A stretch of DNA of 64,000 nt from Asterochloris sp. CNOR1 (taxonomy: Eukaryota; Chlorophyta; Trebouxiophyceae; Trebouxiales; Trebouxiaceae), in assembly GCA_963969365.1 (NCBI GenBank), contig OZ017760.1:62001-126000 (forward strand), read 5' to 3'. The translations under genes were made by a program, and so were the position numbers. The notes beneath the pieces are model-generated. The model did no database searches. It saw nothing but the letters and a program-made list of their open reading frames with translations, and had not been told where the DNA came from. Every line of letters begins with the position of its first letter. The stretch's first letter is position 1. Of the stretch, positions 1-64,000 are shown in pieces.

Positions 1-2755
1 AACAGCAGGAGAGCCTTGCCTGCGCGAGCACATGGCAGGCAGATCCAGGGATGGCAGTGTGACCCAATGCCTGGATCAGCCAGTCAAGTCCGAGCAGTCA
101 TGTGGCCAGCAGGTGCTGTTTTGAGGCGATGAGGCTGCAGTGCTCACTTGGAGGCAGCATGAGCATTGGCAGCATGTGCTGGGCTGCAGCCAGGCCCAAT
201 GGCTGTCTTCATGCAGATGCACAAGCAGCCACACAGGACTTTGACCTGCCCAGCATGCTGCCTCAGACCAAGGGCCGGCATGTCTTCGTCAAAAAGTGCC
301 TGTGGCTGCCCTGCAGGCAGATGCAAAAGCTGCCTCCCACGCAGGCCTTTGTGCCACCCAGTATGCTGGCCCAGACGGAGGCCCTCTTGGCAGCATATCG
401 CGCTTTTGAGCACAATGACATGCCCTGCGATGTCCACGGGATCGCGATCGGCGAGGACCGCCGCATAGGTGAGGCGCCTTTGCCATGCATGCATTTGGCT
501 GGGAGTCAGGCGTCCCCAGCAGCCATGAGTTCCGTGCCAAGGCAGCCAGAGGCTACACAGCTTGCAATATGTGCATCTGATGGTCCCAGTTAATTGTCCT
601 CAGAAGCCCACCACATGTCCACTCTGCTGTCAGCATGTCCAAGTCTTAGTCTAAAGGGCTCTTCTCCCGACAGTCAGATCCTTGCCATTGTATCCTCTTT
701 TGTGCGCAGGCAGCTGGACGGTGCGCTTTGTTGCCTTGTCTCCTCACCAGGCTGCCTGCTGCCTGCTGTTTCCTTAGCACCAGAGCTTCTCCTGACAGCT
801 GGACTTTCTCAGCAATGTCTCCTCTGATGTGCACAGGCAGCTGCATGTTGCGCCCCTTTGCCACCTGTCGCAAAGTGCAATTCCAGGGCTGCCTGCTATC
901 CTTCAGACGCCACACCCTCTACCTTCAGTCAGACCTCCCCTCTGATGTGCGCAGGCAGCTGGACGGTGCGCCCCTTTGCGACCTGCCACACAGTGGCCTC
1001 CCAGGGGTACCTGCTGTCCTCCAAGCGCCAGAAGCTCAAGCCTGAGTGGCAGGGGCGCCCAGGCGCGGAGATCAAGGGGGCCAAGCTCGCCGGTGAGGTG
1101 CGCACACTGTCTGGAGGTGGCTACGGTCTGCACCCTGTGAGGGGGTTTCTGGTGTAAAGGTCAGGCTGGAGGCTGGGTGCTTAGTGCTGGGGCTAAGCTC
1201 TCGGACTGCTGTGTGTTGCATGTGCACATACACAGTCACTTTAGCTGCCCCTAGGCGGCGGCTAAGCTTGTCACTGAGTTGCCATGTGCTAACCCTGACA
1301 GTGCCTGCTTCTGAAGTGTGTTCAATGGCCTTGTGCAGCATGTTGTCGCATCCTGGGGTCATAGGTGCCCTTCTCTCAGAGATGAGTGCAGCCAGGCTTG
1401 CAGATTGGGCACACTGCAGGGTACACACATTGTCAAGATGGCTTCAGCCACGTCCACCCGAGCCAGGTAGCAGGGGTGGTGGTAGTTGCCGATGTGCTCA
1501 CGTCACAAATTTGCCTTGGCTTCTGAGGCGGCCGCCCTGTCCCTTGACAAGGTACAGGTTGCCCTCACAAGTCAAAACGTCACACTCTGCCTTGCAGCAG
1601 ATCACCCAAGAGATTTGTAGCAACAGGGTTCGTCTGCATCCTTGACTTTGTGCCTTCACCATTATCTGCCTTCTGGTTGCTGTGCAGGAGATCACCCAGG
1701 AGGTCACTGTCCCAGAGATCGCCTTCACCGGCGACACCACCACCGACTGGATCTCCATGCCGGGGAATGAGGAGGTTCTGAAAGCCAAGCTGCTGATCAT
1801 GGAGCTCACCTTCCTGGACGACGCAGTCAGCGCCGAGCATGCCAGGGTGATCCCCAGCAGGGTTGTATGCATGCAGCGCCAAGCATGCCAGGGTCAGCCC
1901 CAGTAGGGTTCTGTGCATGCAGCGCCGAGCATGCCAGGGTGAGCCCCAGCAGGTTCCTATGCATGCAGCCCTACAGGTCAAGCCAGGGTTGCACTGAAGC
2001 TGGCAACCAGGGCCAACAATGTGTGTGCAGCAGGAGTCATGACAGCCAAGGTTGAGCAGTGCAAGCTGCTCATCATTGCTTTGGCAAGCTCAGGGGCAAC
2101 AGAAGTGCATGACAGGGGATCCATTTCAAGGCACTATTAAGTGGTGACTGCGGCTTATGGTGGGAGCAGGAAAACTGGTGTGCTTGCGTGCCTTGCACAA
2201 AATGCAGGCAGGTTGTCCTGTCCCTGTCAGAATGTTCAAGAATGCAGGCAGAGATCGTTGAACACGGACAAGAGTCCCCCCAATACCATGAACCCAGGAT
2301 GTCCTGTTGCTGTCAAGTGGCACAGGGTGGCCGCTGGCCTGCTGCAGCACAATTGTACAACCCTGTCTTCCAAATTCAGTGGCATTGTGCCGCTGCAGCA
2401 TTGCAGCCTGCATCAAACTGGCTACGTCTTGCAGCATGTCTGCTCATCAAAGGTGGTATGGGCCTTTGACAGGAGCGCCTACATGCACAAGCCACATGCA
2501 CGAGCTGCCTCAACATGCAGCTGCTCGCCCCGCCCGGGGGCAACATCCTGATGCCTTGCCCCATGCTGCCTGCAGAAGCATGGGCACACCCACATCGATG
2601 AGCTGGTGCAGCACGCCGACAGGTTTCAGAACGAAGCCATCCTGTTGATGCACATCAGCGCACGCTACAGCCGGGACCAGGTGGTCAGACTTCTGGAACA
2701 GAAGCTGCCTCCAGAGCTGCACAGCAGATGCACGCCCATGCTGGAGGGTTGGTGA
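1..2755 (+). CDS. tRNase Z, short plant type (3' part; 5' end outside window)
   Basis: Zinc endonuclease that removes the 3' trailer from precursor tRNA. Four exons join in phase: 345-468, 955-1097, 1688-1846 and 2576-2755 (stop TGA 2753-2755), giving about 201 residues. The joined protein follows Arabidopsis TRZ1 in order: an AAYRAF segment, FATCHTVASQGYLL, then PEIAFTGDTT with a metal-site Asp, ELTFLDD, EHAR, HGHTHIDE, and ILLMHISARYS near the end. These are the C-terminal half motifs of the metallo-beta-lactamase fold. The HxHxDH metal motif must lie in exons before the window, since short tRNase Z is about 280 aa and roughly 80 N-terminal residues are missing. Exon 2 is ended at 1097 (GAG before GTGCGC) because only that donor keeps phase with exon 3. 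Introns 1, 2 and 3 all carry decayed copies of flanking exon ends. Short form rather than long form is inferred from length and similarity. Confidence 0.85.
710..1000 (+). repeat. Tandem copies of a tRNase Z exon start in its upstream intron
   Basis: The true exon begins at 955 after GTGCGCAG. Two decayed copies of the same acceptor and exon start begin at 710 and 836, so spacing is 126 and 119 bp. Shared words include the GCAGCTGGACGGTGCGC block and CCCCTTTGCGACCTG-like text. The copies carry substitutions that break the reading frame, so they look like remnants, not alternative exons. Confidence 0.75.
1831..1968 (+). repeat. 46-bp exon-intron junction repeated three times
   Basis: Units at 1831-1876, 1877-1922 and 1923-1968. 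Each holds the last 16 bases of the tRNase Z exon (CGCCGAGCATGCCAGG type), a GT donor, and about 30 intron bases ending ATGCAG. The first unit spans the real exon end at 1846. Copies two and three are nearly intact and offer competing GT donors and AG acceptors. Confidence 0.85.
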
Positions 2756-3634
2756 CGCAGGCGTCAACCTGTGAGGGCAGTGGTACGCTGGAACAAGGGC
2801 GGGGCATGCAGCAGAGGTGCGCTGGGGATGGTGGCTGACTGCCTGTCAGGATTTGGCAGGTGGCACAGGTGCAAACGGGTGCAATGCTAAGGGGCCCCCA
2901 ATGGCAGCTGAGCACTTGGGCAAAGCAGGCGGTCAGAAACATAATGCAGAGTATCGGACAAGAAGTGCTGCAGGGGCAGAAGTGATACAGGGTAGTAATC
3001 AATGTGCACGGCGATATGCTTGATATCGGCAGGCAAGGAGTAAAGGTGCAACAGACTGCAATGGTCGTTAGTTTAAAGGCAACTGCAAGCAGCAAGCTCA
3101 ATTGCTTGTTTGTGACCTGGACAGGCGTTTGCCTGCGTCTGCCCTGCATGAGAGGCTTGGGTTTTGCTATAGGGATTACTACTGGTCTCACAGCTATGTG
3201 GCATCACCTTTCAGCATCACAATCATCATTGCAGCAGTATCAGGGCACCACAGCTTCAGCTCAACAGCTACCTCCTTCCTGCCAACCCTTGGAGATGTCC
3301 ACTACTTGCAGGGACTGCAGCAGTGGCCACAGACCTGCCAGCTGGCGGCAGGCAGGGTGTACTACAGGGCTGCGCCACCTGAAGAAGCACTTAGATGCAG
3401 CATTCACTGCCTGTGATGGAGCAAATGACTTGCGCCTGGGGCTTGCGGCGGGAAGGGTACCTTCCAGACCACTGCACAGTCCAGAAGCTGGTCAGCTAGG
3501 TGCCCTCAGCTTCATAGGATTGAAGACATGAAGAAGAGTCCTTCCTCATTTATTCCAGCAGCTGTGCTGTGTGTCATTCTGGTCATGACAACATGGCATT
3601 CCTTCAACAGTAATGTACAAGACTGGAGCACCTT
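2756..3634. other. Intergenic / 3' flanks, no supported gene
   Basis: Lies between the tRNase Z stop and the stop of the next minus-strand gene. Open frames exist on both strands (for example 3004-3531 plus and 2685-3191 minus) but none shows a recognisable domain, consistent splice borders or family similarity. Probably two converging 3' untranslated regions. Confidence 0.5.
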
Positions 3635-8149: not shown

Positions 8150-8302
8150 TCAGTGCACAGGTAAGATGCCAGTGACGGTGGTGGGTGTAGCAGGCAAGCT
8201 TGGAGGCCGACCTTGCTGAATGGCGCTTTGCATTGTTGAGCCGCAGCTAATGGTGTGAGCGATGTGCTGCAGGCGGCATCCAGCCCACCTCTTGCTGCTT
8301 CA

Positions 8303-8808: not shown

Positions 8809-11800
8809 ATGAAGCGAAAAGCTGCAGCTGATGCCAGGCCTGTGGAAGGGGCCGAGCAAGCTCCATCAGCACGTGCAATTCCCCATGCTATCATGGAGCC
8901 TGTGAGAGTGCCAGGTGCCCAGAAGAAAGCTGTGTGCAGGGCCTGCACATCCAAACCTGGGGTTGACAGCCAATGCGAATGTGCTTTCCCTGTATGCGTC
9001 AGCCTGTTGGCATGACGGTCATGGCTGGTCCTGCACAACCACACCCGCAGCCTGTCCCTGCATTATGAATCTGCAGACAGGCGCTGAGCCCAGATATTTG
9101 CCAAGCAGGACTTATACTGCGTGACCACACTTTCAGTCTGCCCCTGGACCACACCGATGCTGGAGGCCCCACAATTGACGTGTTCGTGCGGGAAGTCACA
9201 GCTGCAGGGTGTCCAGATGCAGCTGCCATGAGCCGCCCAGCACTGTTATACCTCCAAGGTGCTGAGCCATGCCAACAAGCTTGCTGCTGTCACAGCTGCC
9301 CTCTACATGTGCGCCGTGGGCATGCAATTGTCAGCCCTGGTTGCACACTCGCACCTGCAAGGGGTGCAAACAGCCCTGGCCTTGCAAGCTGCTGTTGCCA
9401 CTTCAAAGCAAACAGTGCTCCTGCTGTCTCCCAGTGGGCCATGCCGTGAGGCCTCCCGCCCCATACAGATCGGAGCATGGCCCACGGCGGCGGGTGGCAT
9501 CCACACTATTGTTGCCATTCCAATGGAAAGTGTCAAGCATAGCTGACCCGATGGATTGCTGGGGCCACCAGTTAGCTGACCCTACAGCAAATGCTTGCTA
9601 AGAAGAAATCAACTCATGGCTGTCCCTGCTGTTGCAGGTGGGCCAGGCCATGAGGCATCCCGGCCCATGGAGGCCAGTGGGTGGCTGAAAGTGGCCACTG
9701 CCACCCACAGAGTGCTCCTCCTGGACCAGAGGGGCACTGGGCGCAGCTCGCGCATCACTGTCGACAACCTGCCCCTGCGGGGCACGCCACAGCAGCAGGC
9801 TGACTACCTCCAGCACTTCAGGTACCCTGGGGCACCATCTGTGGGTCCCCTCCCCGCAGCGGGCAGCCTCCTGCAGGGCTGGTGGGTCAGCAGGGCTTCA
9901 GGCTGTCAGGCTGTGCCTCTGTGGGGGCCAACCCCACAAGTACTAGCTATGTGCTTAGGTGGGACTGCCGTTCAGATGTCATAAAACTGGTCCTGTCCTC
10001 GCAACAACTTTCTAGAGTTTCAGGTGGGGCTGTGTTAGAGCTCATTATTGTGCGCAGCTGCAGCTGCAATGTGCAGGGGCCTTTTGTGTGTGCACCAGCG
10101 CCTCCGGTGAATCAAGATCCCTGCTGCAGGGCTGGCAGCATGTGAGGGACTGTGAGCCGCATGTTTCGGGCCCCGCTGTAGGGCTGAAGGCGGCTGCTGC
10201 TGGGCCATGGCTGGCTGCTGAGGGCTGCTGTCATTGCTGCCTGCAGAGCTGGCAGCATTTTGGGGGACCGTGAGGTGCTGCGCCAGCAGTTTCTGGGCCC
10301 TGCTGTGGGGCTGACTGCACTGTGAGGGCTGTGAATCTCCATGGCGGTTGCTACTGGGCCTTGGCTGGCTCCTGAGGGCTGCTGTTATCGCTGGCTGCAG
10401 AGCTGACAGCATAGTGAGGGACTGTGAGCTGCTGCGGCCGCAGTTGCTGGGTCCGACAGCCCCTGACGGTGGGCGCTGGACGCTGCTGGGGCAGAGCTTT
10501 GGCGGATTCACAGCTGTGACCTACCTGTCCTTTGCACCCTCAGGTCAGGCAATGCCCAGCATGCTGAGTCGGGGGCAGCTATTCGATGCTTGGAGGACTT
10601 GGAGTTGGAGGCTGATGCCAGGCTACTCAATCCATGCACAGCGAGAGGGTGACTGCTGGAGGTTGACCCTTCATAATGGCTGCTGAAGCGGCACACTGTG
10701 TGAACCAAAAGAACTGCATCACAACTCCATCTCGACACGCCATCTGCGGACGCTGAAAGGTGCCCTCCTTGCATGCAGTGCAGGGCTGAAGGCAGTGATG
10801 CTCACAGGCAAGTCGTGCAGTGAACAGGTCCTGTGACATGTGCGATGCTCAGTTTTGGCATGCTGTAAGCAGCTTAGCCTGAAGGTGCAGCCTGTCTTGA
10901 CTCCAGCTGTCTGGGGAGAGCGGCCAGAAATCCAGCTTGACTTGCTTTGCAGTTGCCGTTGTGGCCATCAATTGTTGCAGGTGGCACTGCCACCAGCCAC
11001 CCAAGTCCCCTTCCCCAGGCATTCGTTTTTCCCCTCCCCTGCATAAGGCACTGCACCTCCATCTCCACAAGCCCTGGCCAGCAATGCAGTCGGCTGGCGC
11101 TGCTTGCGTGATCCTGTGGGGGGCCCCATCACCTACATCAGAGTCCCTCCCTCTGCCGCTGCACCAAGCAGGGTGCTCTGCCCTGCCTGACCTGCTGGCA
11201 GCCCAGCGTCTGCATGTCTTGGTCCTCAGCTTCACATGTGTGGTCTGCAGGGGGACTTCCCCCAGCCATCTCAGAGCCCTGTGCAGCTGCCACAACCTAC
11301 CAAGCCACCTTTCGACGGGTCCTGGCAGCCAATCAGCGCTTCTACCAATCGTTCCCTGGGGATGCTGCGATTGTGCGGCGCATAGTGCTGTACCTAGCCA
11401 AGCAGCCTGGGGGTGGCCTGCAGCTGCCCAATGGCGATTTGCTGACTGTCAGGTGCGTAGGCTAGCGCTGACAGGCAGTCTGTCATGGCTGGCTTGGGTG
11501 ACCAGAGGTCCTGTGCAATTGGGCATGGCTGACGTCTGTGGCCACCCTACAGCTGCCCTGCAGCTATTCGCGGACTTTAAGAAGCATGGTGTAGTGCATG
11601 GGGCACAGATGCCTGCATACATGGGCACTGCACCCAGGCCTTGGCTGCTCTGCTGGGCTCGGTGATGTCCTGGCTGGCAGCCTGCAGTTGGCCTGCAGCT
11701 GCTCAGAGGCAATCCGCTGACTTCAAGGAGCATGGCCTAGTGCTGGCGTACAAAAGGCTACCTACCGTGCACTGCAGCTGGGCCTCAGCTGCACTGCAGC

Positions 11801-14292
11801 TGGAACACGGTTGATGATGCAAAAAAACTTAGTAAACCAAGAACTGCCTGAAATGCGTATCAGAGAACGGTTGTGCGGCGGATGAACAATGTGCTGAACA
11901 GCCTGCACCGGCCCACTCACCTGCTCCCTTTGCTGCCTGCAGAGCCTTTCAGTTGGCCGCATGGGTGGCTGGCCACTGTGTCTCTGCTACTAGCGTGACC
12001 TCTTACCTCTTCTTGCACTGCCTGCAGGGCCTTTCAGGGGGCTGGCATCTTGCTGGGGGCGGGCGGTGGAGCTCAGCGGCTGCACTGGATGCTGGAGGGC
12101 GCCTTTGATGAGGAGCTGCAGGCGCTGACTCCCAACTTCCTTGCGGTGAGCCTGGCCCAGCGTGCAACACGCCTCTGCGGCACCACAGGATAGTCTGCTC
12201 GCACAGCTTTGCCTCCTATGGGAAGCTGCCTGCGCTGTCGCTATGTGTTTGCTGTGGACCTGTGGCTTTGGGGAGCCACACAGGGCTGGGCGCTGCACCT
12301 GCTGCTCTAGTCCATATGTGCAGCCTGCACTGCACCATCTGTCTCTGTCCTACATGCGAAGATGTCAAGTGTTTTTGTGTGCATGCTGCATTAGGGGCCA
12401 GTGCCGCACCTGCTGACAGGCTGCCGTTGCACACCCTCACAGGTTGCCAGCATCTCTGCTAGCCTGAACCACATACTGGCTTTGCTTCCTGCCTGGACCG
12501 GTACCCCTGCGAGTGGGGGAAGTATTGGCTGCCAGGGCGACCTGTGCTATTGGCAAGCTCTGACAGGCCCATGCACGCCTGATGCACTTCTCTGCAAATT
12601 TATTTCTGCAGGAGTGGGGAGCCACGCAGAGCTGGGCGCTGCACCCACTGTACGCCATCCTGCATGAGGCCATTTACTGCCAGGGGCGGGCCTCACTGTG
12701 GGCTGCGCAAACTGTCCGTGAGGTGCGCTGCCCACCGCTGCATGCATGTCATGCTTCGAGCGGGCATGCCGGAAGTTCTGTGAAAGCCTGTGACTGTTTG
12801 CGGTCAGCACACGGCGTCTGCAGGTTGTGCATTTATCAGTGTCAATGACTCAGGCTGCAAGCTGTGCGGTGGCTGTGCTGCTGTTGCATGCATTACCCCA
12901 CCCAGGGGAGCATGACCCGCCTCAAAGTCGGGTCCAGAGTCGCAAGAAGCCTGCATGAAGGGGCCTCATGAGTGGGCCAAAGGCAGGCACAGGCCATCCT
13001 CTGGGGACTGCAGCATGCCCTTGCAGGCACGCCCAGCTGATCTGTTCAGACTGCAATGTGCGTGCTCCCCTGCAAGCGCTGGCCATGGCCAGCTGACCTG
13101 CTTGCGCCATTGGCGAGCCAGCGTTTTTGTGAGGAACAGACGTCTTTGCGAGTATTGCAGACTATCTGCAAGCTTTGCTGCCTGCTGCTATCGAACCCAA
13201 TGTCGCTGCAATCGAACCCACTGTGCTGCTTGTGCATGCACAAATGTGGTACAGCAGGGCACCTGCCTCCATTTGTCAAACATGGTCTCAACTCATTCCA
13301 GCCTCAGCTGGCTGGGTGTCTGCAAAGCTGCATAGCCGGCCACATAAAGGGCTGAGCTGGGAAGCAAGAAGCAATGCATTCAGACCGGTGACCTGCCTGT
13401 ACCTCTGGCTTGCAGTGTGGAGGATTCAGGGAGGAGTTTGATGCAGTGGGTGCTGCCCAAGCAGGCAGGGATGTCATGTTCACAGGTGTGCACAAAGCCC
13501 TATCAGTGCCGGCACTGGCACCCCTTGTGGGAGGGGTCTGACATTCAGGTCTGCTGCCAGACAGGTCTCGCCCAGCACCAGCTCCTGTACAGCTGATGCA
13601 CAAATGCCAATTGGTCACCTGCACTGCCACATTAGTCTGGCCTAGCCCCAGCTCCAGTACAGCTGATGCACAAACGGGAAAAACACATTCACACTGCAGG
13701 CGAGATGGTGTTCCCCTGGATGTTCGAGGACTTCGCAGCGCTCAGGCCGTTCAAAGTGAGCCCTGCCTGGCCAGTTGACATTGCATAATGAGGCAGAATG
13801 CGCTACTCCCCTGGTCTTCTGAGGCCAAATTGGGAGCTTGACACTAGAACTTGGGGCTGCTGGCTGTGCCATGCTTGCCTGAGGAACCAGTGCTGTCAGT
13901 GGCAGAGTGATGGCCCTGCAGGAGGCAGTGGACTTGCTGGCTGTCAAGCCAGCCTGGGCCTCAGGCTGCACAACATCACCCTGATGTAGAGCTTTTGGCT
14001 GCTGAAAGTTGCTGCTGACATGCTGCAGGAGGCAGCAGACTTGCTGGCTGCCAAGTCAGACTGGCCCAAGCTGTACGACACGGCCCAACTTGAAACCAAT
14101 GAGGTGCCCGTCGTGAGCGCCACATACGTTGATGACATGTATGTGGCCTTTGATCTTGCTGAAGTAACGGCGCGGCTCATCAGAGGCCTACGCCAGTGGA
14201 AGACCAACGAATTTTTCCACAGCGGCATTCGTGATGATGGGAAAGCTGTGCTCACTAGGCTGTTTGGCATGCTTCAGGGGGATGTACTCTAG
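8809..14292 (+). CDS. Prolyl aminopeptidase (proline iminopeptidase), alpha/beta hydrolase
   Basis: Serine peptidase of family S33 that removes N-terminal proline from peptides. Eleven exons: 8809-8914, 9109-9258, 9638-9821, 10401-10543, 10784-10807, 11251-11452, 12028-12145, 12612-12722, 13416-13485, 13700-13755, 14029-14292. Every junction closes in phase and yields 475 aa, the usual size. Motifs in order: FSLPLDH near the N terminus; LYLQGGPG (oxyanion loop, about 83-89); LLDQRGTGRSS; nucleophile GQSFGG with Ser about 179; LSFAPSGLK; LTGGLPP; NPxYALLHE-type block (HPLYAILHEAIYCQ); FPWMFED; then Asp in TYVDDMYV (about 423-424) and His in NEFFHSGIR (about 452), completing the triad. Start: ATG 8809 (MKRKAAADARPV), first in-frame Met before VPGLILRDHTF. 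No clear targeting peptide. Exon 5 is a 24-nt microexon with a GC donor. Introns carry copies of exon starts. Confidence 0.93.
10130..10470 (+). repeat. Copies of a prolyl aminopeptidase exon start in its intron
   Basis: The real exon starts at 10401 (AGCTGACAGCATAGTGAGGG). Decayed copies start at 10130 and 10247, both preceded by CTGCAG; spacing 117 and 154 bp. The copies keep GCTGGCAGCAT and GTGAGG..CTG blocks, but in-frame stops and indels rule out use as exons. Confidence 0.75.
10784..10807 (+). other. 24-nt microexon with GC donor
   Basis: Encodes the GLKAVMLT core of the family's APSGLK..LTGGLPP segment, bounded by GTGCAG and by AG|GCAAGT. Leaving it out breaks both the reading frame and the conserved motif, which strongly supports it. 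Confidence 0.85.
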
Positions 14293-14592
14293 GCCTGACA
14301 CCTGCCTTGACAAGCAATAGCCTCTGTCGGGTGCTGGCTTGTCTGTGTGAGGTGTGACTCAGACCTGCCTGCCTGCATCTGAACCTGTGAGAAGCTTCTC
14401 ACTGTGTAAAACCCCCGCCCTGACAGTGGCGCAGCGGTGGCCACTATATTCATGGCCAGCGCCTGAGTCATGTCACCGCAGATTCCGTCATCGCCTTGAC
14501 AGGCAGAGCATCTAAGCAGGCCAATATTGCTGACAGTGCAGCAAAGTCACCGCGTTGAGGCAGTGCAGCCTGCAGAAACGCCCATCTGAAGT
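14293..14592. other. Gap between prolyl aminopeptidase and CDPK
   Basis: About 300 bp holding the peptidase 3' flank and the kinase promoter/5' leader. Apart from a TGTAA motif at 14405-14409 nothing distinct is seen. Confidence 0.5.
14405..14409 (+). terminator. Possible TGTAA polyadenylation signal
   Basis: TGTAA is the usual chlorophyte poly(A) signal. It lies 113 bases after the prolyl aminopeptidase stop, a reasonable distance, but a 5-mer can occur by chance. Confidence 0.35.
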
Positions 14593-17500
14593 ATGGGCAA
14601 CTGTCTAGCACCCCAAGGGGAGAGCAAAAGTCCTGCCCAGAAGTCACCTGGCAAAGGAGCAGTCAATGGTACGGCGGTGAGCCTTGTAAAGTGGCAGAGC
14701 AATGCACTGCCAATGGCCTGAGATGGCCAATGCGCAACAGCAGGTTACCCAGACTCAACGATGCAATGTTCTGCACTGCATCATAGTGTCAGCCTGCACC
14801 TCAGCGCTGCCTTCTCAAAAAGAGCTGCATGTGCAGCTGCAGCAGACCTCTGGACAAAAGCAGCAGTCAGCAGCGCCCTGCCATGCCTTGATGCAGCCAG
14901 CTGCACCCGCCTTCCATTGTTTGTCCCGGCAGGACACAAGGCAAGCATGCAACTGTGGTCAGTGAGGGCAGGGGCTACAGGGCTTGCTGCTGCATCGGAC
15001 GTCATCAGAACTCATGCTGCAGAAGCAGTGACATCCGGTTATCAAATCAGTTCATGACCATCTGTGCATCACCCTGAGTCGGTTCTGCAGGGGTCGCCCG
15101 GCAAGCAGAGTGCAGCTGCGCCTGTCTCAGGGCACAAAAGCACAAAGTCCAGCAGCAACGTGCTAGGACGGCAGACGGAGGTGAGCCAGTGCTAAGCACA
15201 CGGGGGGGCGGCTGGCGGCGCCACTGCCGGCCTGCATTGGCCAGGTGCTTGCCACGTGCCTTTGCACAGCAGTTACCAGTAGGCAGTAACCCCTAGCTCT
15301 GAGCCTGCAGCAAGCTCAGGCACAGCCTGGGGGGCCTGGCACGACCGTCAGGATTCTGGGGTCTGTTGGCAACGCCCACCAGGGAGAATTTGCAGTACAG
15401 GTGTTTTCCACTTTTAACAGGCCTGAGCATGGCATCAGCACGTGCTGGGTCAAAGTACCCACATTTTCTCGACGCTGCAGCCTTGGCAGGACTGCGCCCT
15501 GAAGCTGTATGCCACGCTGCAGGCAGCGTCTAGACAGCCTGTCATCCTTTGCTAACAGTGTGTGACCCCGCTGTACATGCAGGACAGGGGTTTAGGCTGG
15601 GGATAGCCTGTCACACATGTCTGGGAGAGGCTTGCCGGACGCAGCGCACTTGTTGTGGCTGCTGGGTATGCCAGGTTGCAGGTTGATGCCTGTGCACCAG
15701 GCACCGCAAGGCTGAGTCCGAATGCTGAGGAGTCGATTCAGCTGCACGCGCCGTGCAGGGTGTGAGGCGGGGAAGGTCTGGCACCAGGTGCTTGGCAGAG
15801 GCTTGCCAGTGTGGGGTCGCACTGTTCAGCCCTGCTGCAGTCCACTCGTCTGTCACACTATGCACGGCTGGGCCTGGACGCTGTGGCATTGTGCCTGCAG
15901 GACGTGGCCCAGCTGTACACTTAAAGGGCAATTTGGCATTACGCGCCACACCTCAGTCAGATCGTTCAGCCCTGCTGCAGGCCGCCCATCTGCCAGGCCA
16001 TGGTTGGCTGGGCCTGAACGCTGTGGCACTGTGCTGTTAGGAAGTGGCCCAGCTGCACACTTGAATGGCAGTCTGACATCACGCGCCACACCACCCTCAA
16101 CCCTGTGGCACTGCGTCGCCTGCAGGACGTGACCCAACTGTACACGCTGGGCAGGGTGCTGGGCCGGGGCCAGTTTGGCACCACGCGCCTAGCTGAGGAC
16201 AAGGGCACGGGGGAGCACCTGGCCTGCAAGTCCATCTCCAAGCGCAAGCTCACGTGAGTGCCAGGCCTCTCACTAACCAGGTTGGCATTGAGGCTGGCAT
16301 GCCAGGTTGGCCTCATGCACAAGCTGTTGTCAGAGGACTGCCTGCAAAGGTACTGCCAGGCAATCATCACAGCAAAATTGTGCAGGTTGGCAGCCCTGGG
16401 CTGGCTTGCTGGTCGCTGCCGGCCTGCAGGGATTGTTCCTCAAGCGCAAGCTCAGATCTTCGCACATGCCAAGAGGCCCTGCCCTACCTTGTTACGTGGT
16501 TGCAATCTGCACCCTGGCCAGGTGCCACGCGGGCTGCTTTGGGTTGTTCCCTTGCCATTGGCCTGCAACAACACTGACCGTGTGTGAGGGCCAGGTGGGC
16601 AGACTGATACTGCAGCCGGGTCTGCTGGCATGGTCAAGGTGTCGTCAGTGTATATCTCAATGCTCAAGGCACCAGCCAGGCTGCTGCCTCACGTGTCCTG
16701 TCTGATGCCCTGCAGGTCGCTGGAGGACATAGAGGATGTGCGCCGCGAGGTGCAGATCATGCACCACCTGTCCGGCCACGAGAACATCACAAAGCTGAGG
16801 GGGGCCTATGAGGACAGGCATCATGTGCACCTGGTGAGCTGAGAGACAGGATGGATGAGGCATGCATTTGTCTGAGGTGCTAAACTGCATTGCAGGAGCA
16901 GGAGGGTATCACATGCACCTGGTACTTGGGCTACTGTGCAACTTACACGCCTCCAGGCCCATAGGGACATGCTTCCATGCTTTGCAATCTGGCATGCTTC
17001 CTCCGACAGGGGTACCAGGAAAATTCTTGACACCTCTAAGGCTCACTTTGTGTTGGAATGGGTACATAATCTGTAAAGCACTCCATGCACCCTGCAGGTG
17101 ATGGAGCTATGTTCAGGCGGGGAGCTGTTTGACAGGATCGTTGCAAAGGGGCACTACAGGCAAGGCAGCTATCGTCTGGCTTGCACAGGCAGCAGCTTCT
17201 GCCCTGCATGAGCTTGTGTGGCAGATGCCAGAGCGCCTGACTCACCTACGTCGACTGGCTGAGGTGTATATGACCCGAGGTCCTTCTGCCAAAGCCCCCA
17301 GACTTCTGGCTGCTGACAGGCAGACGTCCAGGCTGGCTGGTCCAATCTTACTGGCTGACCTTTACAACACAGCACACTACCACCGGTGGACGTTGCTGCT
17401 GACAATGCTGCCTGTGCCTGCAGTGAGAAGGATGCAGCCCAGATGGTGCGCACCATGCTCAAGGTGGTGGCTCACTGCCACTCCCTAGGGGTCATCCACA

Positions 17501-34233: not shown

Positions 34234-34371
34234 AGCTAGGCACTTAAGGTTTCAGGGTGGCACTTGCTGCGTTTCATTCATTTCATTTCCAGCACTGCTC
34301 TCTGCTCTGCTCACTTGTCACACTGTATCGTGCACTCGCTGACTGACTGAAGTGAACGCAAGGGCCCAGCA
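34234..34371. other. Short convergent gap, PAS1-like / FabZ
   Basis: Only 138 bp lie between the two facing stop codons, so the 3' untranslated regions of the two messages probably overlap. Confidence 0.5.
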
Positions 34372-45900: not shown

Positions 45901-47846
45901 GTTGCCTATCAATGAAGCTGCTGCTGCTGATTGCATCTACTGCTGCCTGCCTGCAGCCTGACAGACGAGACAATGTAGAGAGAGCCCCTGACTCTGGGGC
46001 AGAGGTCACTTGACTCCTGCATCTGTGCTGCTGCTGAGCGCAGCTTTGGTGTCTGCCTGCACTCTGACAGGGGAAGCCAAGCTGGAGGCAGCTTCTGACT
46101 CTCTGCCAGAGCTACTGGACTCCTGCATCCGCGCTGTGACTGGGCGCAGCTTTGGTTTCTTTGGTGTGACCATGCCTCAGGTCCAATGCCTGATCTGTGC
46201 CTGCAGTTTGACAGGGGAAGCTAAGCTGGAGGCAGCCCTCGATTCTGTGCCAGAGCCGAGGCGGGATCCCTCGTACCAACCACCAGCCGCTGCACTTGAG
46301 GCACTCGTGCAGCGTGGCGGCCAGGCCACAGCAAAGGATGCCAGGTGGGACGGGCTAGCATTGCTTGCTATCTCAAGTGCCTGTTGGGGCCAAGGGTTCA
46401 GAGTATTGGCAGATGCGGCAGCCAAGGGGAGGCCGGGTAGTATTAACCCGATGCAAGTTGGTTTAAACAGCCACTGCTGGCGTCTGGGGGCATGCTGCTG
46501 ACCAATTTCTCACTGAAAGTTGGACAGGCAAGCTGCAGTGGATGAGCATGGCGATGAGGCTGCAGCGTGATTCCTGGCGTTCTCCTAAAAAGTGCATTAT
46601 ACAACAAGTTGAGGAGAGAGGCGGTGAACAAGCTTTGTCGTACTGCCATGCTTTTGTGCAGGGACTCTCAAAGCAGCATAGCCTCCAGTGTTGGGTGGAT
46701 GAGTGGCCCATCAAGAGTCTGTCTGGCATCCTACACTGCCGCGCCTTTCTTCAGGGACTGACAGAGCGGCGCAGCCTTCAGCGGCGGTGGACGCATCTCC
46801 TCACAAGTCTTTGTCAATGGCCTGTCTGGGACAGTGCCATGCTGGTGTGCAGGAACTCTGAGAGCAGCATGGCCTCCACCAGCAAAGAGACAGAGGCCAC
46901 GCCGCCCCTGGCTGCAGATGTCAGCCCATCCACTGGGTCTGGCACCAACGGGCACAGGGTACACCCTTCGAAGCCACAGGCAAGCTGTAGCAGCACCCCT
47001 GTGCATGGCAGCAATTGCCTTCATCTCAAGAGTAGGAATTAGTCGACCTCTCTGGCGACCATTGACTGCCGGTAGCTTGCATCTGCACAATGTTTGACGC
47101 CCTGTGGTCTCCTAAATTGTGCAGCAGCACCAGGGAGATTTCTCTGCAAGGCTCTGGAATGGTCCTGCCACAGAAGGCCTCTAAATGGTAGTACCCATTG
47201 CATTTCGTAGCTGTTGGTGGTTCATAAGCCTTCAAACATGCTGGCACCTAAGGCGAACCACATCTGCAGCAGTTGCACACTAGGCGTATCACCCGCTACT
47301 ACCTGTGCAAGTAGAGACCTCACCATCAAGCTCCAGGGTGGATGCAACCACACACAAATTTCCAGATCAAGCCCTGAAGTGTCCGGGAGACAGGCATGGC
47401 CCACCCAAGGTCAAGTCTGTTGGATGGAGAGGCCATGCTCTGGTCTTCCATCATGCAACCACTTGACTTTCCAGAAAAGTGCCTGTTTTGTGCCTGCAGG
47501 CTGCTCAGCACCTGAAGCCTGACGCGCGCCTGCTCCAGCCTCCCTCACTTGAACAGGTGAGGGAGGGGCAGCCCAGTAAGCCTGAAGCCCCAAAGCCCAC
47601 TGAGCCGGTGCAGAAGAACAAGAAGAAATTCTTTTCTAAGGTGGGTCTTTAGAACTGCTTGAAGTGCCCCTAAGTGACACTGTGTGGTGGATCATGCACC
47701 AGCAGCCCTGTCGAATTGTCGTGTTCTGGCCTTATAAGGGAGACTCGCTAGGCTACAGCTGTCCTTTTTGGCCACAGGCTTCATCTCCAGAGAAGGCAAC
47801 AAGGCATGACGGAGACTCCCCCTCTGAGTGGGACTACTCAATTTAA
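36954..47846 (+). CDS. Serine O-acetyltransferase with very long low-complexity C-terminal region
   Basis: Makes O-acetylserine from serine and acetyl-CoA, the first step of cysteine synthesis. Visible exons: 36954-37096, 37654-37818, 38684-38750, 39543-39673, 40057-40202, 40527-40643, 41037-41114, 41619-41812, 42167-42314, 42831-43068, 44249-45122, 45449-45588, 46207-46344, 46853-46979, 47500-47640, 47778-47846 (stop 47844-47846). All phases close: at least 971 residues; the start codon lies upstream and is not found. The first 282 residues are a normal enzyme: [54 protein letters not shown] (D157-H158 of E. coli CysE), DRHPKV (His193), then left-handed beta-helix repeats to [11 protein letters not shown]. 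About 690 Gln/Ala/Pro/Ser-rich residues follow. The protein ends SEWDYSI, like the plant tail (EWSDYVI) that docks into O-acetylserine (thiol)lyase, final Ile included. Introns at 45589 and 46980 start with GC. Confidence 0.9.
38340..38700 (+). repeat. Copies of acetyltransferase exon 3 start
   Basis: GAGTGCTACGTGAGGTCCA near 38346, GCATGCTACGTCAGG near 38430 and GGGTGCTACATGAGGTCC near 38468 resemble the real GCGTGCTAAATGAGGTCC at 38684. They are short and diverged. Confidence 0.6.
40770..41060 (+). repeat. Two-unit duplication ending at an acetyltransferase acceptor
   Basis: About 140 bases from GGCTACCTTGTG (about 40777) recur from GGCTACCATGTG (about 40917). The second unit ends in the real acceptor at 41036. 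Both units contain GGGCTGAAGCATGTGTGGCG; in the first the CAG is spread to CAAGCAG. Confidence 0.75.
42571..42860 (+). repeat. Three copies of the repeat-exon start of the acetyltransferase
   Basis: TGCTGTGCAG followed by GCAACACC(C/A)AGCTG at 42571 and 42689, and the real GCGACACCAAGCTGAAG at 42831. Spacing 118 and 142 bp. Text resembling the first 19-residue repeat (CCCTGGCAGACTGGCTGGGC) is still visible in copy 2. Confidence 0.8.
42831..44310 (+). repeat. Five 19-residue protein repeats, LADSLGLR type
   Basis: Inside the acetyltransferase coding sequence. Five back-to-back units of exactly 19 residues: four in exon 42831-43068 and the fifth at the start of exon 44249-45122. Consensus [G/L]KPDxxxxxQ[S/T][L/Y]A[D/E]SLG[L/I]R. 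The intron falls inside the last codon of unit four. Such a short repeated motif looks like a docking or assembly element; function unknown. Confidence 0.9.
43040..43440 (+). repeat. Three copies of an exon end plus donor, 175-bp period
   Basis: The real exon ends at 43068 in GCTTAG|GTGGGGATG. Copies of the LADSLGLR-coding end plus donor finish at 43242 and 43417, spacing 174 and 175 bp, with the same downstream GCAGGCAGCTCTCTGCACTG. Here the real junction is the first copy. Confidence 0.85.
45957..46260 (+). repeat. Copies of acetyltransferase exon 13 start
   Basis: CCTGACAGACGAGAC at 45957, CTCTGACAGGGGAAGCCAAG at 46062 and the real TTTGACAGGGGAAGCTAAG at 46207; the middle copy has lost the G of CAG. 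Spacing 105 and 145 bp. Downstream GACTCCTGCATC and GCGCAGCTTTGG blocks repeat between copies 1 and 2. Confidence 0.8.
46662..46900 (+). repeat. Copies of acetyltransferase exon 14 start
   Basis: GGACTCTCAAAGCAGCATAG at 46662 and GGACTGACAGAGCGGCGCAG at 46755 precede the real GAACTCTGAGAGCAGCATGG at 46853. Spacing 93 and 98 bp. Confidence 0.8.
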
Positions 47847-51690: not shown

Positions 51691-54600
51691 CTAGCAGTCC
51701 GCTTCTGGTTGCCCAGCCCCGCTGGCCCAGGTGACTAAGGCATCAAGCACAGCCATCTCGCTCTGCTGGCTGGTGAGCAGAGCATTCCAGCTGGACTCAA
51801 AGTTGAGCTGCTGGGGAGACGGCCTGCAGGCAGCATGGGGAATGCTCAAGTATGGGTCACAGGACTGCTGGGGCACTGCGCATGCCACCATCGAACCCAC
51901 GACTGCCGTGGTAGGCATGCACCTCCCAGACTGGTCTGCAGCCCGTTCACACAACACTGCTGGGGGCCAACATGCCAGATGCTGTTTTCACGCAGACTGG
52001 AACAGGTGAGCAGGACCATTGCAAGTTCAAGCAATCCTGTGCAGCATACTGCCGGCAGGCGAAGCTTCAGAGTGCAGCAATGTGGCAGAGAGATACAGCC
52101 CAGGAAAGGAAGCCCACCTCTGCAAAGTCGGGCGGGCTGAGGGCCACTGGGGCTGCCAGGCTGAGCGCTGCGTGTCCACTGCCTCCCTGAGGGGGGCTGC
52201 CAGACGCTCACAGGTGCTGGCAAAGGAGACTCCACTGCCACCGGGAGCAGTCTGCAGACACCAGGGCAATTATATGTAAGTTATATGTAAGTTAACTGCT
52301 CTTGAAGAAATCACAGCGGTGTGCACACCGAGCAAACTACACCTTGAGGCAGCATGGCCACTGCCTCAACATGCACAGCCTGCATGCAGGACGTGGACGC
52401 ATCTCATATGAGATAGCTTGATTTGCTGCAGCCACAGCAGAAACCCACCTGACAACACACCAGAGCCTGCTCTGCTGTGGGCAGCCCGCGCTCCTGGCGC
52501 AGGGCGGCCAGGCGGCGCAAAGCCCTCTCGCGCGGTAGCAGGGGGCGCCCCAGAGCCTCCTCTGAGGGGAGCGCTGCTGATGCCTGCCTGCCATCAGCAA
52601 GGGCGGCAGCAGACTGCCGCGGCTCAGCTGTGGGAGCAGCGCTGCTGCCCCAGCAGGGGCCTGCGGCCGCAGCCCAAGGGTCTGAGAAGGGGTTGAAACC
52701 CTGGGAGGGTTGGCCCCGCTCCCTGCCTGTGGGATCTTGCTGCGAGCCAGGCACCATACCCTGCTGCGCTGCGGCATCGCTCATGCGCTGCTCGAGGTGC
52801 TGCCCCTGGAGCTCGTGCAGGCGGCGGGCGTCGTTGCGCTCGGCGCTCAGGTCGGCGGCCCGAAGCAGCAGCAGAGAGCCTGCAAGGCTCGCTTCCTGCC
52901 CATCACTGGCGCTCCCAGCCTGAGGGCACAGACAGAGAAGTGGTCAGCTGTGGACTGTGCCAGGCAAGGAGAGTGAAGGGTTCAGCTGTGGCCATCAATC
53001 TGACTCCTGAGTGCAGCTGCCTTTGTGAATACATGCTTGTGCAGCAACAGGGCACAGTGCCCAACAGTGTGCGGCGGCTGCCATTGGCAAAGTGGCCAGC
53101 ATATGGCAAAAGCAGCCACATGATCCTCAACAGAAAATGCCATGGCCATAAAAAAGGAAACGGCAGCACTTGAGCGCAAGGCAACATCCCTATGAGAGGC
53201 ATGATGAGGCCCAGGTCTCACACATGAATGCTAGCTGCCACGGTGATGAAGTGTCACACGCAAACAACTAGCCCTGGTCCCCACAAGTGTGCGTTCAGTG
53301 TAGCCTTGGTGCCCTCCACAAGCGAGCGGCCCACCCAGAGAGGACACCCACCTGTGTGCGCCGGCTGCCGTTGGTGATCTGGTGCCAGCGCATGGCGTGG
53401 TAGCGGCTGAGCAGGGCGCAGGCGCTCTGGATGGTGCCCCCGCGCTGGCGCTTGGCTGCCTGCAGGCTGACAAACTCCTCCTGCGCGCCGTCTGCCTCAA
53501 AGCAGGCGCTCCGCAGGCGCCGAGCCCCTGCAACATCAGAGGTGAGCTGTCACGATCTTGAGGGCTAGACACCTAACAGTCTGCTGAGACTTGAACATGG
53601 GCCTCAGATTCTGGCAGAGATTTGCTGGAACCTGTGTGCTGCTGTCGGCACTGCCTCGGAGAGCAGTCAGCTGCCCAGGCCAGCAGCTCTTCACAGGAAG
53701 AGTCAGGTAGGAGTTGGGAAGTAACGGGGTTCACTTCAGCCGCCTCAGCAGGAAAATCAGCCAAAATTGAGAAGCTTGAGGCCACAGCAGCTGGCAACCC
53801 TTACTTGAGATTGTAAAGTGGCCCAGTGGAGCCTCCCAAGGCAACGCAAGCATCTGCTTAATGTCAGTGCAGGCATAGGAGAAACGCTCACGCAGGATAG
53901 CAGTGCCCAACCTGCAGCATGGCATTGGCCACTTGCAGGGCAGCAGCGGCCGACCTGCCAGACAGCAACAGCCTCACATCGGCCTCCAGACGCTGTGAGC
54001 ACCTCCCTGAAGCGCCACTGCGGCGGGCACCAGCTGCACAACAGAAAGCCAACCCTCATGCACAGCGGCCTATGCCTCACCTGAGCCCCCTGACGCTGCA
54101 AGCACCTCCTTGAGGCTGCTGCTGCGGCGGCTTATGGTGCGCAGGGCGCCGCTGACAGCGCGCGAGACATTTCGTGGGGCTGTGCCACGCCCACGACGGC
54201 CGCGCCCGCCACGCGTGGGGGCAGGCAGCTCGTAGTCCTCATCCTGCAGGAGAAGGGTGGCGGTGTTGGTGTGACAATTGTGCCTGGCTTGCTGGGCCAC
54301 TGCAATGTGCACCACCTTGAAATTCGGATGAACTTTCTGAAAGCATGCTAGGCTCAACCCCCCCAATGGATTGTACACCAGGTCAGATTTAGAATGTGTT
54401 GTCAAGATGTGAGGTCAGGCAGCTCTCAGACCTCCTCATTGGAGCAGGCAGAGGCAAAATGTGTCAGCTGCAGTGTGTCCAAGTGCCGATGAAGAAGCCA
54501 AGCAGCGGTGAGTCCTCTCATGATGGAGCGGGCGCATGTCAGCCGCAGTCTAGGAGTGCCACGAAGCACCAAATAGACCCCACTCTGCTGCAGAAAGAAG

Positions 54601-57600
54601 AGCTGATCCTGATGCAGACTGTATGACGCGTGAGCAGCTGAAAGCGCTTGCTTTGCTGTCTGGTCACAGCGTGGGCTGCTCGTCCTTGGAGACAGATTTG
54701 CCAGAATTAGGGGCCTCAGGCCGTGAAATGGGCAAGACAGAGCTACCTCAGATATGCAGCCAGATCTTTGCCCAGGACAAAATGAGAAAGCTGACCCACC
54801 TTGTCAGCATCAAGGGGGGGTGTAGCGTCCAGGGCGTGCTGCACAAAGTCCAAGCCAGCCGGCGACGGCGGGGGCTGCCCCCGGGGAGGGGCATCCTCTG
54901 CAGTCGGGCGCGACGCTCGGAGGCGTTTTCCGCGGCCTCCAAGCTTGGGCGTCTGCAGGAGGACCATCAGCTTCACGAGTGGCCTTCAGTAGCGCTGTGT
55001 TTGCACACTGCTGCTTTCAGTCGCGCTGTGCAACAGCCAGCAGGCAGAGGCTAGAGTCAATTGAAAGAGAGCAGCATGTGGAGGCAGAAAATGTGTGAAT
55101 CTGGTGCTGAGTGGGCCCCGGCAGGCCTGGATGTGGAGCAGGCAGCAGGGCTGCACAGGTGAGGGCTGTGGACAGGGGGGCCTGTAGCATAGCAGCAGAG
55201 CTGAGGGATTGGGGCATACTGGCACATCGTGCAACACACGCACACGCACCAGGCTAAGCTCTGACCGCAGATCTGACCTCAGACACCCCATGCAGGCCCC
55301 ACTGCGAGGGGCAGGGAGCGCAGGTGCCAGGTGCCGCATGGGCAGCAGCTGCCGGCCTGCACAGCCTCATCCACGAGGGGCAAGACTGCATCAGCCCCCT
55401 GCCACGTCAGCAGCCACCTGGCAAGCTGTGCTGATGCAGGTGCTGCAGCGCCTGTCCTGCAAGCCTGTGCCTACTAGATGTACCACATTCAGGAACCACT
55501 GATTGCTACAGGCACTGGTGATGCATTACGTGTGTAAAGCGATGCTTGCTAAGCACACGGGTTTCTTCTGAAGACGGATGGTCTCACGCTGCAGACTGTT
55601 GTCAGCACAGCCCCATGTGGCAAAGTGTGCAGCCAAAGCACCATGTCATAGTCAAGCGCTGTCTGCCCTTCCATCCACGAGCCACACTGGCACGAAGCTC
55701 TGCAACCAAGTTTCTCTGCCTGTAGCAAGGCTCTGCAACATTGACTGTCCAGCTCACTAAGTCCAAAGGTGCCAGCAACCCCCTTGTGGGCCGGGTGCTC
55801 AAGCATCTGCTGCCCCTCAGGCAGCCCTTTCCAAGGCTCTCACCTTGCGCCCTAGTGCCGGCTCCGGGTCCACATCAGGAGTCTCCAGGTCAGCAGCAGG
55901 CTCCGGCGAGTCGGCCTTCACCAGCGCCGGCACGGGCTGCTTTGCCTTGGGGCTGGCCGGCAGGCTGGGGAGGGCTGGAGGCACACCAACCTGCAGGGGG
56001 AGGCATCGTGCAGCCGGTCAGTCTGCGATTAAATAGTGCAGAGGCAGCGTTGAGTGGAATCTAGGCTGGCCAGCGCCCTCCACCAGGGGTGGGCCTTCAG
56101 GTTTTGCGGCTCAAGCTGCCTCACCAAGCAGCGGTGACATGGCCCACATGCTCATGAACCTCTGCCCACACAAGTCTGCTGCACACCTTTTGCAACTCAA
56201 CCCCATGACCACGCTGCCAACCAAAGTAGCAACAGCAGGCATGCAGACAGTCAATACGCCCTCTCACCTGGGAGTAGGGAGTGCTGGGTTCTGATCCCAG
56301 CACCTTCAGCACAGGCTCGGGCTTCAGCGGCAGCTCTGCCTGTGAAGGCTGCTCCGCCTTTGAAGGCAGCTCCGCCTCTTCCCGCTGCTCAGGCGCAGCC
56401 GCGGCAGGCGCGGCTGCTGCGCTCTGCTGCACAGCAGCAGGTGGCGCAGCCGTCGCAAGGGCAGGAACCGCTGCCGTCGCAGCTGCAGCCGCAGCTGGAC
56501 TCCTGCTGGCAGGCAAAGCAGGGGGCGCCTCTTGTGCCTGTGGCCGCGCGAGCAGGCCAGGCGCTGCAGCTGCAGGAGCAGTGGCCACCGCTGGGGCCGG
56601 CGCCGCCACTAAGTCCCCAAACAGGTCCATCTCGACGAGGCGGGCCCCGAAGTTGGTGGAGCCAGAGGCGCGCTGCAGGGTGCAGGCCCGCTTCTCTGGG
56701 ACCTGCTTGGCCAGGGACCCTTTGCCGCTGCTGGGGCCCTTACGGAGGCCGCTGCCCTGCCTCCACGCAGCCCCGCCGGGCTGCGACGGCTGCCCGGCAA
56801 GACCTTCCTCCCGTTTGACCCGCACTTTGGCGAGAGTAGGACGCTCCCGTTCGCCCTTGGCCCCTGGGCGGCTGCCGCCCAGTCCGCCGACGCGCTGCTG
56901 GGAAGCTTGCTGGGCATCCCTTGAGCCGCCCATCTGGCTCTCTGCCCGCTCACGATCCTCCCCAGCGGAGGGGGACTCCACCAGGTCGGCGGTGGACTGC
57001 TCGGACAGCCGATCCGGCAGGCGAGCGCTGACCAGCTCCTGCTTGAGGGGCGGGCCTGCCCCCGCGCTGCTGCTGTGCTCAGGGTGGCTGTCCGCGTCGG
57101 ACAGGACCTTCACGCAGCAAGCGCGGCTGATGTGCCCCTCTGAGGCGGTGTCCTCGGCCCCAAGGTTGAGGCGCGACGAGGTGCAGTGGCTCTGCTTGCT
57201 GCCGTCTGAGCGGCCTGCCCCGTCAGCATGGCCTGCACATGGCAAAAGCGTAACTCGTCAACTGCCTTGTGTGCATGGAAAGCCTGCAATGTCGCCTGGA
57301 GGCCGCAGCGGCTTTGCTTGCTGGCATTGGAGTATCCTGCCCCGCCAGCATGGCCTGCAGTTAGCAGATGATAGTTTGTTGAGCCCTGTGTGCATGACAG
57401 GCCTACAAGATGTCCTGCAGGTAGCAGTGGCTTTGCGTGCTGGTGTTGGGAGTGCCCTGCACTGTCACATTGCCTGCACATGGCAGCAGCTGACAGGTCA
57501 GATGCGCTGTGTGCGGCACCAGCCTTCAACATAGTTCTCAGGCGGCAGTGGGCTCCACCTGATGGCGTTGGCAAATGCCCCGCCAGGTGACAGGTCAGCT

Positions 57601-60221: not shown

Positions 60222-61748
60222 GGTTCAAAATTGAAACCTCGTTGCAGGTGCGCCAACTCCTGCCAGCAGTCAGCGATGCGGCCTGGCACGCTGACATGCA
60301 GCGGGCAGCCCAGCTGTGGGGAAGAGCAGCGCTGGAGGAAGCTGACAGATGGGTGTGGTGAGAAGACTGTCACACCATGGTGATATGCTGCTGGGCTGAA
60401 GAGAGCGGAGTAATCAGCGGTCTGGCTGCCTGCGCACTGCCCAGGGGCTCAGGCAGTGGCTCAGCTGCCACCACCTGGCACTTTCCCCCAGCCCTGTGCT
60501 GAGGTGTCCACTCGTTGCACCGACAGCCCCGGCTGGAAGTTGAGAGGGGCTGGCTGGGCACAACCTCAAGACCATGCAGGGGGTCGTGCCGCCCTCGGGC
60601 CGCCCAAACCCGCGGCGTGCGTCCTGCCGCCCAGGCCACAGTGTGTACCTGCCGAGCCCGCGAACCCTGCGCGGGGCTGCAGGGGGGCCCACCTGTTGAA
60701 AAATCATGCCTGGCCCCACATCACTCCCGTAGCTCCTGTGAGATGCCCTGGCTGGTGGGCTGCTGCGCCATCCTGAGGAAGCCCGCAGTGGCAGGCTGCT
60801 GAGTCATCCTCCCCAAACTGTGATGTGTTTGGTTCTTGGGTGGCACACAAGCTGACTGTCTGCTACTGGGTCTGCAGGAGGCGATTGGCAGCTCTGGGCG
60901 CAGGCAAACCCTCAACTGCTAGGGTTTTCCTGCACACGAGTGAGTGCACCAGATGAGGCCACAGGAGACAAGCCCTCTGTTTGACAAGGAGCTGCAAATG
61001 GAATTGTTCGTGCTGTGCCACCTGGAGGGGGGGAGGCCTGCCAGGACCTACACTCCCCTCGAGAAAGCCCATTGACGCTGGCAGGGCTGCCTGAGGCGAC
61101 CCATTTCTTCGGCACTAGGTGGGGCCGCAGACGGTCCTGCGAGCCGTGCCACCATGTTCGACACAACGTTCTAGCCTCGGTCCATCTGAAGACACTGCTG
61201 ATTGGGCACAACAGTAACAGAAAGCCTGAAGAGTCACTTCCCCACTCATCTGTATATGGGGAGGAAGTAGAGCAACAACTCTAAGCACAGACTGGTTGAC
61301 AGCACCTGACCAGCTGCACCAAGTTGGTCAGATCCTTCAGCCCTGTCATCGTGGTCCTGAGTGTCTGCTCGCCTAAGCTATGCAACTTGCATGAATGAGG
61401 TTTGTTCAGAGTTCAGATGGCAATGCTGTCATGTGGAAGTCGGCCCAGAGAAAAGGACTCAGCTGGATGGACATCGTCACAGATCTTGCAAGTCACACAT
61501 CAGGTCAGCTACTCTGGTTCAGCCTCAAGCTCCAGCGCATGTGAGAAGGACTTGGCATTGATGGGTGCATGCCCATTGGCTGCCCCGTTTTGGACCGGCA
61601 AGGGCCTGCAGCAAACGCCAGCTGCTCAGCAGCCTGATGAGTACCGAGAGCCACATCGGACCATAGAGCCGCCAACATGCTTTGTCAGGCACAACACACA
61701 GAGGAGTGTAGGTCGCCAATCAGGTGCACAGAAACATCTGCAGGTCAC
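60222..61748. other. Unassigned stretch
   Basis: Between the minus-strand start at 60221 and the TMEM45-like stop at 61749. A minus-strand open stretch from ATG 60805-60807 (MTQQPATAGFLRM) could be a further 5' exon of the gene below, but I found no phase-consistent junction. Plus-strand frames here show no similarity. Confidence 0.35.
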
Positions 61749-63829: not shown

Positions 63830-63869
63830 CTGCATGTAAGGAGGGGCAGGGCTAGACGCGCCTTGTGCA

Positions 63870-64000
63870 CTGGCAAAGTTGAGTGTTGTCAAATGCCAGA
63901 AGCGCCTACTGACACTCCACAGGCCCCACACAGGCGGCACCGCAATGCAGCAGGGCCAGCCACCTCAGTGGCAAAGCTGTCCAGGCGCGGGCTGCTACAG
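63870..64000 (-). other. Intron with exon-start copy and possible upstream TMEM45-like exon
   Basis: Minus strand: GCCGCCTGTGTGGGGCCTG (about 63920-63940) copies GCCGCCTGTATGGGGAGG at the start of exon 63829, about 105 bp away. Beyond it an open stretch SPRLDSFATE followed by a GTGGCT donor may be the previous exon, cut by the window edge. Confidence 0.4.

Follow-up and report, generated by a model that had tools for sequence, protein, structure and literature searches.

The window analysed here comprises 64,000 nucleotides of the green alga Asterochloris sp. CNOR1 (positions 62001-126000 of contig OZ017760.1, here C15, in a genome of 56.4 Mb and 21 contigs) and carries protein-coding genes in which some introns hold decayed copies of the splice junction at their own edge. 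Window models match the Pfam domains FKBP/TPR, protein kinase, serine acetyltransferase and DUF829; the window model at 62952-64829 gave no Pfam domain. The nearest named protein relatives are from trebouxiophyte green algae: a citrate synthase has its best named match in Coccomyxa viridis (69%) and the FKBP protein its best match in Myrmecia bisecta (P0001, 44%). About one in five sampled introns holds such copies, each a splice site with some 50 bases of exon, and is longer by roughly the copied stretch, which suggests that old local duplications falling on splice sites lengthened introns.

Genes were predicted ab initio by a finder trained on 264 kb (the window plus C15:126001-326000), which converged on the acceptor TGCAG/G and the donor AG/GTGAG and returned 31 genes with 311 exons, the median intron being 423.5 bp long. 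With a further 50 kb from contigs 1, 3 and 8, the full sample is 314 kb, about 0.6% of the genome, and holds 323 predicted introns. Some models fuse neighbours, so the true gene count may exceed the model count. One window model (9616-20808) has two in-frame stops and seems to join two genes, with the Pfam protein kinase domain in its second part; another predicted model, at C15:260760-300725 (71 exons, 4,940 residues, no internal stops), may be a fusion of neighbours.

When the window was compared with itself, 38 local same-strand matches scored at least 50, against none in three shuffles; another pair count found 389 real pairs and 1 in shuffled sequence. The original prediction had listed 16 sets of coordinates at which junctions and their copies should lie. 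Taking intermediate positions in the 27300 and 33709 arrays as estimates, and comparing copies less than 90 bp apart with shorter pieces, 29 of the 32 resulting pairs scored above all 3,758 random window pairs. Two others (29717/29833 and 45957/46207) are marginal, each equalled by 2 of the 3,758, and 46755/46853 is absent, scoring 14 in the same test.

The copies belong to the intron in which they lie. Queried with 60 bp of pure exon lacking the splice motif (score of at least 34), 33 exon starts matched their own upstream intron and 31 exon ends their own downstream intron across the 323 introns. The same exons gave no match in 3,230 control draws from introns of other genes for each exon end type, none in 1,615 shuffled own introns for each, and none in reverse-complemented own introns. 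The similarity of introns to their own exons, proposed as a genome-wide check alongside the original prediction, comes out far above its controls on the 314-kb sample, and agrees with the idea of tandem duplication across splice sites after which one copy is kept. Three arrays (in the 27294, 42555 and 33631 regions) matched only themselves when queried across the genome, in keeping with the expectation that each copy set is private to its intron. The expected orientation likewise holds almost without exception: at the same threshold, 1 of 286 exon starts hit the downstream intron and 1 of 286 exon ends the upstream one.

Copy-bearing introns number 61 of 323 and are spread over 20 of 37 intron-bearing gene models; the window contributes 17 of its 64 introns and the rest of the sample 44 of 259, among them 7 of 43 on other contigs. 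On those contigs 50 kb hold 12 clusters of matches, a lower density than the 100 in 264 kb of C15. Two quantities had been set too high or too narrowly. At least 20 introns in nine or more genes had been proposed for the window, where we count those 17 in 6 gene models, although fused models may hide a higher number of genes; and the spacing, said to cluster at 105-126 bp, is broad, the smallest offset per cluster having a median of 108.5 and quartiles of 91.5 and 149.75, with 19 of 112 clusters in that interval.

The proposal that introns grow by such duplication fits their lengths. Introns with copies have a median of 594 bp, compared with 393.5 bp for the 262 without (p=3e-9), and once the offset to the copy is subtracted the median of 369 bp does not differ from that of copy-free introns (p=0.88; 65 introns with exon-only matches scoring at least 34). 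Among introns shorter than 350 bp, 3 of 115 hold copies.

What is copied is the splice signal together with a stretch of exon that usually does not exceed about 60 nt. Junctions of both kinds are affected, 37 at three-prime and 30 at five-prime intron ends, and of 89 matches 73 extend past the junction by at least 5 bp, in direct orientation. Mismatch at the codon positions of the exon is 17.4, 14.5 and 20.9% (positions 1, 2 and 3), so the copy is free at every position, and the dinucleotides AG (29 of 37 and 26 of 35) and GT (27 of 30 and 22 of 30) survive in the copies about as often as neighbouring exon bases. On these grounds the spare copies are read as neither coding nor kept splice sites. 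It is very unlikely that they function as decoy or alternative splice sites under selection. In many introns the splice consensus is kept along with exon sequence, and the tendency of alignment ends to favour matching bases leaves room for weak constraint; however, AG and GT fare no better than the exon bases beside them, the divergence extends to codon position 2 and offsets are random with respect to frame. Mutually exclusive exons are ruled out, each copy having one splice site and only part of an exon, and there is no sign of repeat-directed mutation (372 transitions, 293 transversions; 221 C>T plus G>A changes versus 151 the opposite way).

Some junctions could be checked against related proteins. 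The genes for citrate synthase, tRNA pseudouridine synthase and a kinesin together have 8 copy-bearing junctions, of which 5 are covered by alignments to solved relatives and all five are continuous there; of the remaining three, two fall within an insert without alignment, and the third coincides with a break at which about 33 residues are missing, pointing to a missed exon. In the window, the exon at 26864-26951 joined to 27911 follows P0001 by eye, so the whole 27294-27905 array is intronic; the 31-bp exon that the finder placed at 27300 is one of the decoy copies. The further suggestion of the original prediction, that duplication moves intron borders, finds no support here, since the covered junctions (these five and 27911) are continuous with distant relatives and the spare copies decay as noncoding DNA.

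Two results go beyond that prediction: the same duplications occur away from junctions, and nearly all copies are old. The 112 clusters comprise 66 exon-intron, 19 intron-only, 12 intergenic, 11 exonic and 4 exon-intergenic cases. Offsets of fully exonic pairs are divisible by three in 10 of 11 (8 places; one of these pairs, at 46054, probably represents a copied junction), while exon-intron offsets fall 32/26/31 of 89 over the three remainders. Frame kept within exons and random across junctions is the pattern that blind duplication filtered by protein selection would leave.

The first scan, a blastn search of each chunk against itself, missed near-identical neighbouring copies, such as an exact 141-bp duplication recovered by k-mers, so the age analysis was repeated with a diagonal scan and Tandem Repeats Finder. 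Among 52 sites aligned over at least 60 bp, 50 are 65-85% identical, one 85-90% and one at least 95%. Simulated copies put through the same method reached at least 85% in 147 of 150, 135 of 148 and 77 of 138 cases for 0.5, 2 and 5% change per lineage. Tandem Repeats Finder reported 2 of 22 long-period arrays with at least 90% match and 8 of 54 short-period arrays with at least 98%. If production had been steady, young copies should be at least as numerous as old ones, which their rarity contradicts (2 of the 52 sites reach 85% or more); we infer that activity was much higher in the past and that most of it lies there. The clearest recent event in the sample is the 141-bp tandem duplication (L019:3809-4090, that is C15:299809-300090), which sits in an intron already holding old junction copies.

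Table 1. Junction copies and associated features, in window coordinates
Feature	Position	Strand	Basis and remarks
Upstream copy of acceptor and exon start at 955	694..726	+	94% over 33 bp to 939-971; 0 of 3,758 random pairs as good
Second upstream copy of 955 junction	818..912	+	80% over 95 bp to 936-1030; finder's nearby exon start at 907 probably wrong
46-bp array, 3.1 units, from last 19 exon bases across donor 1846	1828..1969	+	87% matches
Upstream copy of exon start 10401	10123..10160	+	90% to 10394-10432; read directly
Upstream copy of 10401 junction, about 54 exon and 58 intron bases	10189..10300	+	85% over 112 bp, offset 154
Downstream copy of exon end and donor 11452	11677..11745	+	75% to 11402-11470, offset 275
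Upstream copy of exon start 12612	12269..12299	+	94% over 31 bp
Upstream copy of 14029 junction	13916..13975	+	82% over 60 bp, offset 107
Two-unit array (140 bp), copies of 16126 junction	15824..16092	+	Repeat and pair scans
Copy of exon start bounded at 24839, DUF829 gene (Pfam)	25010..25056	-	Score 42, offset 197
FKBP/TPR gene exon 2, missed by finder	26864..26951	+	Translation EQQDLNRGVVMRGSIVPGEGRHNPVDGD fits Myrmecia bisecta P0001 by eye; end base inferred from GT donor
Five decayed acceptor and exon-start copies, FKBP/TPR gene, upstream of true start 27911	27294..27905	+	75-83% identity; each above all random pairs; read directly; single-copy in genome
About three 52-bp units ending over exon start 30394	30247..30404	+	Repeat and pair scans
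Array of about 131-bp units, copies of exon start 34020	33631..33980	+	Repeat and pair scans; single-copy in genome
Upstream copy of 39543 junction, not in original prediction	39298..39353	+	79% over 56 bp, offset 235
Two upstream copies of 42831 junction	42555..42775	+	Pair scans; read directly; single-copy in genome
Two downstream copies of exon end and donor 43068	43204..43565	+	78% over 370 bp, offset 174; read directly; exon thus flanked by copies on both sides
Copies of 46207 junction (finder began exon at 46044)	45919..46160	+	Pair scans; 45957 copy marginal
Upstream copy of 46853 junction	46644..46687	+	86% over 44 bp, offset 191
Copy of exon end bounded at 54081, not in original prediction	53971..54026	-	79%, offset 103
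Two copies of acceptor and exon start bounded at 57232	57305..57571	-	Offsets 122 and 240

Two other repeats were seen. A dispersed repeat of about 4 kb, possibly a mobile element, is present at C15:167085-171767 and C1:511154-515288 with 92-94% identity. At 52270-52294 of the window, 2.3 copies of an exact 11-bp unit (TTATATGTAAG) are unusually AT-rich for their GC-rich surroundings.

The copies are probably the product of ordinary small tandem duplications filtered by selection, those that crossed a junction having lengthened introns, mostly in the past. Short duplications, with offsets mostly of about 70-150 bp, would arise along the chromosome, largely during a past period, and selection would filter them, leaving exonic survivors nearly all in frame. 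Where a duplication crosses a junction, one copy would stay joined to the remainder of the exon and, if that site is still used, the protein would be unchanged. The spare copy would end up in the intron, which gains one unit in length, and would decay like other intron DNA, remaining recognisable longest beside its conserved exon partner. The fixed order of copies follows because a junction-crossing duplication places the spare copy in the intron; the directionality is what geometry plus selection gives. Work on patch repair in plants bears on small tandem duplications that come from break repair. The data show the copies, to which intron they belong and how they are oriented, their decay as noncoding DNA, the filtering for frame within exons, the difference in length and the old age; inferred are the splice site in use just after a duplication, the route of DNA repair (fill-in at staggered breaks, for instance) and how the events are timed against the splitting of species.

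Several observations weigh against this account. The length contrast is partly built in, as a short intron cannot hold a copy, and the gene finder itself partly favours frame-keeping exonic pairs. The models are ab initio, and their known errors include two in-frame stops in one of them, the false exon at 27300 and the roughly 33 residues missing from citrate synthase, which points to a missed exon. Junction-crossing pairs number 91, compared with 48.0 +/- 6.6 when labels are shifted, and so exceed random placement; the ratio of exon-intron to intron-only clusters is 66:19, where a small-indel model expects about 0.4-0.7. A mixture-of-ages model with small indels only requires an approximately 6-fold junction excess. 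Larger intron indels, which erase intron-only pairs fastest and so shrink the excess, give the only model that nears expectation, and its best-fitting settings still leave a 1.1-5.6-fold excess (these fits used observed summary values of 49, 18 and 51, which a recount put at 50, 19 and 52). Finally, 61 of 80 copies end within 60 nt of the exon edge (54 of 60 of those reaching the junction), above the fractions of 0.43-0.58 (0.51-0.71 reaching the junction) predicted by the best-fitting models; with units 25% shorter than offsets, the predictions rise to 0.64-0.71 (0.71-0.79). The limit of about 50-60 nt of exon may reflect selection against decoys long enough to pass as exons, or a junction-coupled mechanism.

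The errors in the gene models are also what would speak for an artefact of assembly, low complexity or wrong models, an explanation that is hardly credible. Assembly errors yield near-identical copies, whereas 50 of the 52 dated sites are only 65-85% alike; the shuffles returned no matches or a single pair in place of 389; and solved relatives agree with five of the junctions, P0001 with another.

The junction excess bears on a different alternative, in which some process linked to splicing, transcription or the chromatin of exons directed duplication to junctions, making them true hotspots. This is unlikely, although the maximum-likelihood enrichment under small indels is about 6-fold (logL 81.5, compared with 67.8 without enrichment) and the exon depth, mostly no more than 60 nt, is found at both intron ends and is unrelated to exon length. 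The enrichment falls to as little as 1.1-fold with larger intron indels, units 25% shorter remove much of the depth limit (0.64-0.71 predicted, 0.76 observed), and duplications occur also in introns, exons and intergenic DNA. A specific version, in which junctions were hotspots during a past pulse, when some 50 nt of exon were copied with the adjacent intron by a process coupled to splicing or to exon chromatin, which then nearly stopped, is decidedly unlikely.

Intron lengthening is usually ascribed to inserted mobile DNA. Many introns of this alga keep a readable record of another route, in which duplication of a junction is invisible to the protein yet always lengthens the intron. Because every duplication deposits a copy next to a conserved exon, the rate, timing and filtering of small duplications should be measurable genome-wide, and the apparent end of duplication activity could be placed on the algal tree. 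If junctions were true hotspots, introns of this lineage would have been enlarged by repeated copying of their own borders.

Tandem duplication is an accepted source of new introns (PMC3443670, PMC2891723, PMC4974935), and it could be asked whether the copies instead record intron creation, either from an exon segment containing AGGT that was duplicated in tandem or through mobile introners, rather than growth. The accepted standing of that route speaks for such an origin, which is nevertheless highly improbable: birth needs a copy abutting the opposite splice site, whereas only 1 of 60 comes within 20 bp of it; the copies include intron bases from a junction that had already formed; and the arrays are single-copy. 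In the model as reviewed (PMC3443670), a small duplication and splicing likewise keep the protein intact, but exon sequence is turned into a new intron, whereas in this alga the duplication affects junctions that already exist and lengthens introns already in place. Introners (PMC9860276) can also affect many introns per genome, often in green algae, but are alike between genes; the copies here are private to one intron, all three arrays queried being single-copy and no exon matching an intron of another gene in the 3,230 control draws for each end type.

The closest single case is the potato RdRp gene (PMC4974935), with a tandem duplication across an intron-exon boundary in which the duplicated piece likewise combines the 3' portion of an intron with the 5' portion of the exon that follows, splice signals included. 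There, in a single gene, an intron arose and exon sequence was inserted. In the alga the spare copy falls within an intron that already existed, checked junctions stay as they were, copies occur at both ends of introns and about one in five sampled introns is involved; a new intron with inserted exon sequence was not seen at the five of eight junctions covered, three being uncovered. Direct repeats near splice sites (PMC11782384) are also found at intron borders, but are 4-30 bp long, lie around both borders and are read as insertion marks, whereas the copies in this alga derive from a single junction, in many cases repeatedly, and lie to the intron side of it. Classical minisatellites have near-identical, homogenised units, a feature that the arrays here do not share, 2 of 22 long-period ones having at least 90% match. 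Repair of breaks with 3' overhangs (PMC8355091) is a plausible source of blind small tandem duplications, described without a tie to introns; breakpoints here are heavily decayed. Among the matches listed in a search of titles and abstracts of open-licence literature, none reported widespread lengthening of existing introns by junction duplication.

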